Source: Dromiciops gliroides (Eukaryota > Chordata > Mammalia > Microbiotheria > Microbiotheriidae). Taken from it: a stretch of DNA of 64,000 nt. The stretch covers positions 357,102,953 through 357,166,952 of the forward strand of contig NC_057861.1 of NCBI RefSeq assembly GCF_019393635.1. The letters are read 5' to 3'. The notes below the pieces were generated by a model. It searched no databases. It was given only the letters and a program-made list of their open reading frames with translations, and was not told the origin of the DNA. Each line of letters starts with the position of its first letter. The stretch's first letter is position 1. Both the position numbers and the translations under genes were made by a program. Below, piece by piece: positions 3,664 to 4,638 of the stretch.

Positions 3664-4638
3664 TTGGCATTATTCTATCTACGAAGTAGACCAAGAGGAG
3701 AACTTCATATATCTCCTTATGAAATGCTTTTTGGTCACCCTCCTATCCAAGCTAAAACTTTTTCCCCAGTTTATACATCACTGGTGGGAGGTGATACTTC
3801 TGTTGCTTCCTATATACAGGAATTACAGACCAGGCTACGTGAACTCCATGAGGCAGCAGCTGTGGTCCAGGCAGGCCCATTAAACTTTTCATTGTACAAC
3901 CTCAACCCAGGAGATAAAATATATGTAAAGAATTTTCAGAGAACCAGTGGAACCCAACCTGCCTGGCAAGGACCTTTTCAGGTATTATTGACAACTCCTA
4001 CTGCCATTAAAATTGGTGAAAAAGACTCATGGATTCATTGCTCTCATGTAAAACCTGCACCATTCATAGGTGAAGAGATTTCAGATAGACCTGAGGTAGA
4101 CACTAAAGAGCTAAAAACCCTAACGATAGCAACTGTTAAAGAGCAAAGAGAGTTCAGAAGAAATAGGCAGTTCCCATTTGATAATCCCACTGATCAGTTA
4201 AATGCTTTGGGACTCAGTCTTCATAAAGTATCAGGAGACGGAAATTGCATTTTTAGGGCTTTAGCAGACCAGCTAGAAGGTCACTGTAGCAATCATCTCA
4301 GACATAGACAAGAAGCTGCTTCTTACATGATTAACCATAGACAAGAGTTTGAGTCTTTTAGAGTAAATGACTCCCCTTTTGAAGAATATGTTGACGAATT
4401 AAAGAAATTTGGAAAGTTGGGAGGAAATGATAGGATTGTAGCATTTGCTAAGCAGCATCAGCTGAATGTGGTAGTTCATCAGTTAAATCAGCCTTTATTG
4501 AAAATCAGTGGCACAGACAAAACTGATGCTAGAGAACTCCACATTTTCTACCATAAAGAACATTATGACAGCATTAGAAAGATCAATGACAATTCAGAAA
4601 CCCCTGCCACTTTGGCATGCAGAGAATTGGGGAACTAG
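3664..4638 (+). CDS. integrase C-terminal domain fused in frame to an OTUD3-like OTU deubiquitinase domain
   Basis: The frame is open for 324 codons from the first Met; the TAG is at 4636-4638. Residues about 1-140 are the end of a gammaretroviral integrase: 'ISPYEMLFG', then a beta-barrel GPY/F-type segment with 'WQGPFQVLL' (W101) and 'HCSHVKPAP'. After a charged linker (about 141-178), residues about 179-304 form an OTU cysteine protease domain. It has the catalytic loop 'GDGNCIFRAL' (Cys195 at 4246-4248), 'DQLEGH', 'HRQE', 'GNDRIVAFA', 'HQLNVVVHQLN', 'ARELHIF' and the catalytic His in 'KEHYDSI' (His300 at 4561-4563), then 'INDNSETPA'. This order and wording match the cellular deubiquitinase OTUD3, which removes ubiquitin chains. 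The OTUD3 C-terminal half, including its UBA region, is absent. There is no Met between the integrase part and the OTU part, so the domain would be made as a Pol fusion or from a spliced message. Both active-site residues are kept. I infer capture of a spliced host transcript by the retrovirus. Confidence 0.9.
   Translation: MALFYLRSRPRGELHISPYEMLFGHPPIQAKTFSPVYTSLVGGDTSVASYIQELQTRLRELHEAAAVVQAGPLNFSLYNLNPGDKIYVKNFQRTSGTQPAWQGPFQVLLTTPTAIKIGEKDSWIHCSHVKPAPFIGEEISDRPEVDTKELKTLTIATVKEQREFRRNRQFPFDNPTDQLNALGLSLHKVSGDGNCIFRALADQLEGHCSNHLRHRQEAASYMINHRQEFESFRVNDSPFEEYVDELKKFGKLGGNDRIVAFAKQHQLNVVVHQLNQPLLKISGTDKTDARELHIFYHKEHYDSIRKINDNSETPATLACRELGN

Follow-up and report, generated by a model that had tools for sequence, protein, structure and literature searches.

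A class I endogenous retrovirus family of Dromiciops gliroides whose pro-pol frame ends in an OTUD3-type OTU domain

Integrase-OTU frame at the window locus

A stretch of 64,000 nucleotides of the Dromiciops gliroides genome (RefSeq assembly GCF_019393635.1, contig NC_057861.1, positions 357,102,953 to 357,166,952, forward strand; the window) carries at its beginning an old copy of an endogenous retrovirus (ERV), in which the integrase end of pol runs on in frame into a deubiquitinase domain of the OTUD3 type (Table 1). Further copies of this family (ERV-OTU) were collected from the genome and compared with each other and with the host OTUD3 gene, and we conclude with high confidence that this class I ERV family has captured the OTUD3 catalytic domain, free of introns, as the last part of its pro-pol, and that the family occurs at many loci, very recent insertions among them.

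In the window copy, a single frame (3643-4638, 331 aa) leads from an integrase C-terminal domain of the murine leukemia virus (MLV) type (PF18697, residues 88-139 of the frame) to an OTU domain (PF02338, E 2e-10), with no stop between them. Human OTUD3 is the best solved relative of the OTU part (4bou; 194.6 bits, E 1e-56) and OTUD5 the next-best OTU protein (39.3 bits), a difference which places the OTUD3 assignment far from chance. Protein searches were headed by OTUD3 orthologues of mammals, birds, reptiles and amphibians at 54-65% identity, and the catalytic Asp, Cys and His are present. The OTUD3-type OTU domain occupies positions 4138-4635 and continues the reading frame of the MLV-type integrase end. 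A first-pass annotation, made from the letters of the window alone, had read a whole OTU domain in the integrase frame from a series of motifs, all of which are present, and had named OTUD3 as its specific parent; both statements hold.

The remainder of this copy is damaged. Gag p30, retroviral protease, reverse transcriptase (RT) and RNase H were detected by Pfam upstream of the OTU part in pieces, with gag and pol scattered over several frames, and sister copies keep about 0.5 kb of integrase sequence that is missing here at 3642/3645 (blastn against L005-L008). The OTU part is still open, its stop codon (4636-4638) lying a little upstream of that in the nine young copies with listed frames. 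The two long terminal repeats (LTRs) differ at 33 of 565 sites (Kimura two-parameter distance 0.061), which dates the insertion to roughly 12-15 million years ago under a substitution rate that we take to be 2-2.5 per site per billion years; if this date holds, the family has had the OTU part throughout the time between then and the very recent past. The flanks agree at three of the four target-duplication bases (by eye). The window copy is old and broken, and an open OTU frame in such a copy does not by itself speak for use by the host. In the nucleocapsid region of its gag, a 58-bp direct repeat (91%) was observed at 655-712 and 752-808.

Table 1. Features of the window copy (positions of the window unless a contig is named)
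Feature	Position	Strand	Evidence
5' LTR, outside the window	C1 ~357,101,664-357,102,230		in upstream stretch L038
gag remnant (capsid p30 and zinc-knuckle region), damaged	2-970	+	PF02093 E 3e-22 over 2-661; CCHC-type motif by eye, frame 564-875
Retroviral protease	972-1319	+	PF00077 E 3e-6
Reverse transcriptase piece	1388-2170	+	PF00078 E 6e-22
RNase H region	2466-3446	+	PF00075 E 4e-22
Integrase region, start	3447-3644	+	blastn vs L005-L008; ~0.5 kb gap follows at 3642/3645
Integrase C-terminal part, MLV type	3645-4059	+	PF18697 E 4e-16
Integrase-OTU linker	4060-4137	+	6 shared variants, 5 nonsynonymous, in 72 copies
Captured OTUD3 segment (from within exon 1 to approximately the exon 4 end)	4138-4635	+	OTUD3 match, catalytic Asp/Cys/His
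Stretch from OTU to polypurine tract, no recognised gene	4639-6452	+	list of open reading frames; Pfam on the same stretch of L010
Polypurine tract	6453-6470	+	sequence; same tract precedes the 3' LTR in young copies
3' LTR, TGTGG...CTCACA	6471-7048	+	comparison with 5' LTR

Copies and anatomy of the family, and the host OTUD3 gene

The genome (3.30 Gb in 17 contigs) was searched with an OTU profile, with the best 150 of 1652 first-look candidates scored, and at the DNA level with a 641-bp junction query (window 4000-4640), with 40 of 1653 scored; the roughly 1,650 candidates per search are first-look figures, mostly unscored, and not a verified copy number. All 40 scored DNA matches, one of them the window itself, cover the query (39 in full, one over positions 2-641), and 104 of the best 150 OTU-profile matches lie in open frames that are each exactly 1392 residues long (counted by eye). 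Intact copies probably make up a smaller fraction of the whole family than of these best-scoring matches. For alignment, 72 family loci were used, consisting of the 40 DNA-picked copies, with the window copy among them, and 32 Pfam-picked or other copies; L083, which lacks a family match, and L082, a second, partial stretch of the L008 copy, were left out. The pol-OTU junction is common to all 71 loci aligned with the window copy, at 95.0-98.1% identity to it. L083 (C1:152456509-152456730) is an OTU-profile match of 55 bits without a DNA match to the family.

The anatomy of the element was established on ten young copies by comparison of the 3' piece with the 5' piece, the pro-pol frame being read in pieces only. 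The order is gag-TGA-pro-pol-OTU followed by the 3' LTR, with no recognised env; gag and pro-pol share one frame with a TGA between them in the three copies read (3/3), and the OTU part is the C-terminal end of the pro-pol frame, not a separate gene. The LTRs of the young copies (498-579 bp) begin with TGTGG and finish with CTCACA, and together with identical 4-bp target duplications (10 of 10 copies) they enclose the whole element, which measures 8,634 bp from LTR to LTR in copy L020/L010. After trimming to TGTGG...CTCACA, nine of the ten LTR pairs are without substitution; in four of the nine, one LTR is longer by a single base. The tenth pair has one difference in 541 sites. The primer-binding site looks like an Arg-type site. 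The LTR at 2593-3171 of L010 holds at least two 78-bp repeat units, and LTR length varies between copies.

Between OTU and 3' LTR lies a stretch of about 1.75 kb in most young copies, shorter by about 0.25 kb in L009. Four frames of this stretch in L010 gave no Pfam match for env or anything else over the cut-off, with two sub-threshold matches (E 0.019 and 0.72), and the longest plus-strand frame within it has 143 aa in the nine young copies listed. Neither the OTUD3 gene nor its 3' flank is accepted as the source of this stretch, as only short or repeat-like matches were obtained. With PF18697 and PF02093 over the cut-off, the gag-TGA-pro-pol order and TG...CA LTRs with a 4-bp duplication, the family is a class I (gammaretrovirus-like) ERV, a placement made by domains and structure rather than by an RT tree; the env expected of the class was not recognised.

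The host OTUD3 gene was located on the minus strand of contig C3 (~614.30-614.32 Mb) in eight matched coding pieces. Its OTU domain is spread over exons 1-4, with GT-AG splice sites, and the joined exons read as OTUD3. All three introns of this region are absent from the ERV segment, which begins inside the exon 1 part and loses its similarity within about three codons of the exon 4 end; its OTU part is about 54-66% identical to cellular OTUD3. For the later exons and the 3' flank of the gene, only short or repeat-like matches were found in the element. The intron-free coding part within LTRs, and the same junction at many loci, identify the OTU part as a capture from a host gene by an ERV. 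This fits the capture of a spliced transcript into retroviral RNA, as described for other ERVs (PMC4299795). The first-pass annotation had proposed such a capture by a class I retrovirus, with a search for the same junction at several loci as a check, and is upheld by the missing introns, by PF18697, PF02093 and the gag-TGA-pro arrangement, and by the aligned loci. It had also set the gene between pol and the 3' LTR, which is correct as to position, with the refinement that the OTU part is a C-terminal extension of pro-pol.

About 16 kb upstream of OTUD3, C3 ~614,331,166-614,331,458 (L036) aligns over 297 bp, at 85.5% identity, with the pre-LTR part of the family. This match was discarded as the capture site, since the gag, pol and OTU of the family were not found in the 20 kb examined.

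Apparent selection on the OTU part and origin of the capture

The OTU parts of two young copies (L010, L011) were compared with host OTUD3 over 141 codons, and differ from it by 29%, 18% and 57% at codon positions 1, 2 and 3; the nonsynonymous divergence (dN) is 0.25 and the synonymous divergence (dS) was not computable, that is, saturated. As the constraint seen here may be owed largely to the cellular gene, variants among the ERV copies were compared as well. In the OTU core (4210-4614) of the 72 copies, singletons comprise 71 nonsynonymous and 14 synonymous changes (expected nonsynonymous fraction 0.76; two-sided p 0.13), as under neutral decay, whereas variants in at least two copies comprise 13 and 18, with silent changes enriched (binomial p 4e-5, Fisher p 2e-5). 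Restricted to the 40 DNA-picked copies, the corresponding counts are 65:16 and 9:12 in the core (p 0.001, Fisher 0.0012) and 71:18 and 12:12 in the whole segment (p 0.0044, Fisher 0.0049). The linker and the short integrase end showed no constraint, with just six and three shared variants, respectively, in the 72 copies.

At the level of residues, the OTU frame is without stop or frameshift in 61 of the 72 copies and damaged in 11. All three catalytic residues (Asp, Cys, His) persist in 70 of 72, and a lysine aligned with K129 of OTUD3 in 72 of 72. For Asp and His, the exact positions are those that we take to belong to the triad. The Cys and the kinds of the triad residues follow a report on OTUD3 (PMC10566363). 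Judged statistically from these sequences, purifying selection has apparently preserved the OTU part in those lineages that went on to spread.

In a tree of OTUD3 genes with four ERV OTU rows, of the sort that the first-pass annotation had suggested, the ERV sequences form one clade (100/100) on a long branch; their placement among OTUD3 genes is weak. The best tree groups them with mammals (61/75), and trees constrained to group them with sauropsids, amphibians or the host gene alone were not rejected by the approximately unbiased (AU) test (p-AU 0.15, 0.38 and 0.12, respectively). On this tree several lineages are candidate donors, that of the present host among them. The saturation at silent sites suggests that the capture is old or that evolution was fast. 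Env-bearing gamma-type ERVs gave 79 matches in the genome; the three examined upstream have integrase ends 41-49% identical to that of the family and no OTU match, and were set aside as parents, none being an obvious one.

Several points weigh against a captured domain maintained for the element. Over the whole OTU segment the signal is weaker than in the core (72 copies: singletons 78:17, shared 23:19; p 0.0017, Fisher 0.001), and the 32 Pfam-picked or other copies, taken by themselves, give no significant Fisher result (core 0.21, whole 0.55), with a binomial p on shared variants of 0.0076 for the core and 0.083 for the whole segment. The test ignores shared ancestry and mutational hot spots, and the core limits were chosen after a first look at the variants. 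The UBA part of OTUD3, which presumably sits in the exons after exon 4, is not in the ERV OTU. Moreover, none of the three env-bearing matches examined, out of 79, represents a sister family that has env and lacks OTU, from which the state before capture could have been read.

Two other accounts of the origin were considered. By one, a processed OTUD3 retrocopy landed in a single ERV and was then carried along as a functionless passenger, in agreement with the intron-free segment, the broken window copy and the damaged OTU frames in 11 of the 72 copies. A processed retrocopy would normally retain its 3' end and a poly-A tail. Neither a poly-A tail nor the 3' half of OTUD3 was found behind the OTU part, and processed-pseudogene identity is therefore not supported; the 5' part of OTUD3 is missing as well, and the OTU part is in frame with pol. 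The first-pass annotation had held that confinement to a lone ERV, or a poly-A tail and target duplication of the segment's own, would mark it as such a copy, whereas the junction recurs at all 71 other loci aligned and, in the ten young copies, the duplications enclose the whole element. With 61 of 72 OTU frames undamaged, shared variants depleted of nonsynonymous changes, and catalytic residues kept despite an old divergence from OTUD3, we consider the passenger account very improbable. By the other, the OTU part was captured from the OTUD3 of another vertebrate by an exogenous virus that entered the host later. The long OTU branch and the compatibility with a sauropsid or amphibian grouping allow for this; the best tree, however, places the ERV sequences with mammals, weakly, and a grouping with the host gene alone is likewise compatible. 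We consider a foreign donor unlikely, although far less so than a passenger retrocopy.

Possible role and known systems

A spliced OTUD3 transcript may have been joined into retroviral RNA by template switching, replacing env. The OTU part would then be made only on ribosome readthrough of the TGA between gag and pro-pol, and, because it lies behind this TGA at the pol end, it is expected as part of Gag-Pol and packaged into particles with integrase, either attached to it or cut from it. There it could strip ubiquitin locally from the element's own Pol/integrase complex, shielding it from the proteasome before integration. Local ubiquitin removal in protection of its own Pol/integrase is the job we consider most likely, a preference that we hold tentatively. 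With somewhat more reserve still, the family can be envisaged as a recently active mammalian ERV that carries its own integrase-fused deubiquitinase as part of its replication cycle and edits ubiquitin inside an env-less particle, in convergence with the Ginger1 transposons described below.

What is reported of cellular OTUD3 bears on the alternatives. It cleaves mainly K6 and K63 chains and strips K63 chains from RIG-I, MDA5 and MAVS; its activity needs Cys76 and, on MAVS, also acetylated Lys129 (PMC10566363). The ERV OTU might accordingly act mainly in trans, damping RNA sensing through RIG-I, MDA5 and MAVS in germ cells rather than serving the element's own proteins, for which the reported removal of K63 chains from these same sensors speaks (PMC10566363), as does the K129-aligned lysine in all 72 copies. 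Against it, the fusion to pol behind a stop codon would limit the dose and tie the OTU part to the particle, and OTUD3 has in addition been reported to enhance cGAS activity in the defence against DNA viruses (PMC10566363), for which reason a pure evasion role is not favoured; we rate damping of RNA sensing as unlikely on balance, though next in likelihood after protection of Pol/integrase. An involvement in integration itself, for instance by changing the ubiquitin marks of chromatin or of repair factors where the element inserts, has been suggested for Ginger1, where an OTU domain was independently fused behind a Gypsy-type integrase (PMC2836005). This parallel speaks for a similar role here, but the role in Ginger is merely a suggestion of its authors (PMC2836005), and the sequence offers nothing to tell it from integrase protection; we regard it as quite improbable. 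Among the candidate roles we would place Pol/integrase protection first, the damping of RNA sensing second and the integration-site role third.

The first-pass annotation had known of no mammalian retrovirus with OTUD3. Likewise, titles and abstract starts in open-licence PubMed Central yielded no ERV with OTUD3; repeat databases, where the element could be catalogued under some name, and subscription papers lie outside this search. No match to ERV-OTU was found among viral contigs, and no other pol-OTU fusion among the 17, 26 and 30 matches of three protein searches, from which records near the genome of the window were possibly excluded; besides OTUD3 genes, the matches were integrase proteins without OTU and other OTU proteins. 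Host-gene capture by ERVs is already known (PMC4299795), and the OTUD3-pol fusion was not met in the literature searched.

Some of these matches are observations in their own right. Predicted MLIP isoforms of Monodelphis domestica (P0009, P0010) contain a related integrase C-terminus (76% identity over the match) with no OTU behind it, likely an exonised ERV piece. In eight proteins of 670-1196 aa (P0052, P0053, P0056, P0057, P0059, P0061, P0063, P0064), encoded on contigs 8-47 kb in size, an OTUD3-like OTU domain is embedded in long stretches with no other Pfam family; the three of them that were read look alike, and these proteins are perhaps a multi-copy family. P0046 (Pseudonaja textilis), annotated as a mitochondrial ubiquitin ligase, combines GIDE and RING domains with an OTUD3-like OTU domain and is perhaps a gene-model fusion. 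Elsewhere in the window, the minus strand at 26575-26692 matches the SNORA3/SNORA45 family of small nucleolar RNAs (63 bits, cut-off 51).

If pol indeed closes with a catalytic deubiquitinase, ubiquitin would seem to be a decisive restriction on a retroelement that stays inside the cell. The domain, a single enzyme unit whose cellular parent is known, also lends itself to testing. The near-identical young copies make the host suitable for the study of present-day ERV activity, such as insertion polymorphism and transcription.

With cellular OTUD3, the element shares the OTU part and the catalytic residues; it lacks the N-terminal end and everything after exon 4, and has integrase fused instead. 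As a working analogy for the protection of Pol/integrase we propose the PRO/DUB of turnip yellow mosaic virus (TYMV), a viral OTU that counters proteasomal degradation of the viral polymerase; TYMV is a plant RNA virus, and the likeness is taken at the level of the OTU family only (PMC3744425). In the Ginger1 DNA transposons, OTU or Ulp1 likewise lies behind a transposase resembling Gypsy/ERV-type integrases (PMC2836005). Ginger1 has inverted repeats and neither LTRs nor RT, and its description, as available to us, states no OTUD3 origin (PMC2836005), whereas ERV-OTU has LTRs, RT and RNase H, which exclude it from being a Ginger1 transposon. Among the eight marsupial ERV clades of Harding et al. 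(2024), in the main text of which 'OTU' and 'ubiquitin' are absent, MEBrv 3 of dasyurid marsupials is, like ERV-OTU, env-less and recently amplified (PMC11334065). It is a class II (betaretroviral) element of 7.3 kb with an LTR of 469, as against an MLV-type integrase and Gag p30, about 8.6 kb (in the copy measured) and LTRs of 498-579 in ERV-OTU; size and domain type, taken from the description of the clade rather than from its sequences, set the two apart (PMC11334065).

The nearest precedents for the capture itself are crocodilian. CrocERV29 (KIT-ligand) and CrocERV31 (nectin3) also captured spliced host mRNA, with nectin3 replacing env, purifying selection reported, and six nectin3 insertions named for alligator (PMC4299795). 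Host genes that an ERV has captured and maintains under selection are rare, being called relatively uncommon there, and the examples named act on cell growth or at cell surfaces (PMC4299795). In contrast to the CrocERVs (PMC4299795), the gene carried by ERV-OTU codes for an intracellular deubiquitinase, fused to the end of pol, in a mammalian host and in many very young copies.
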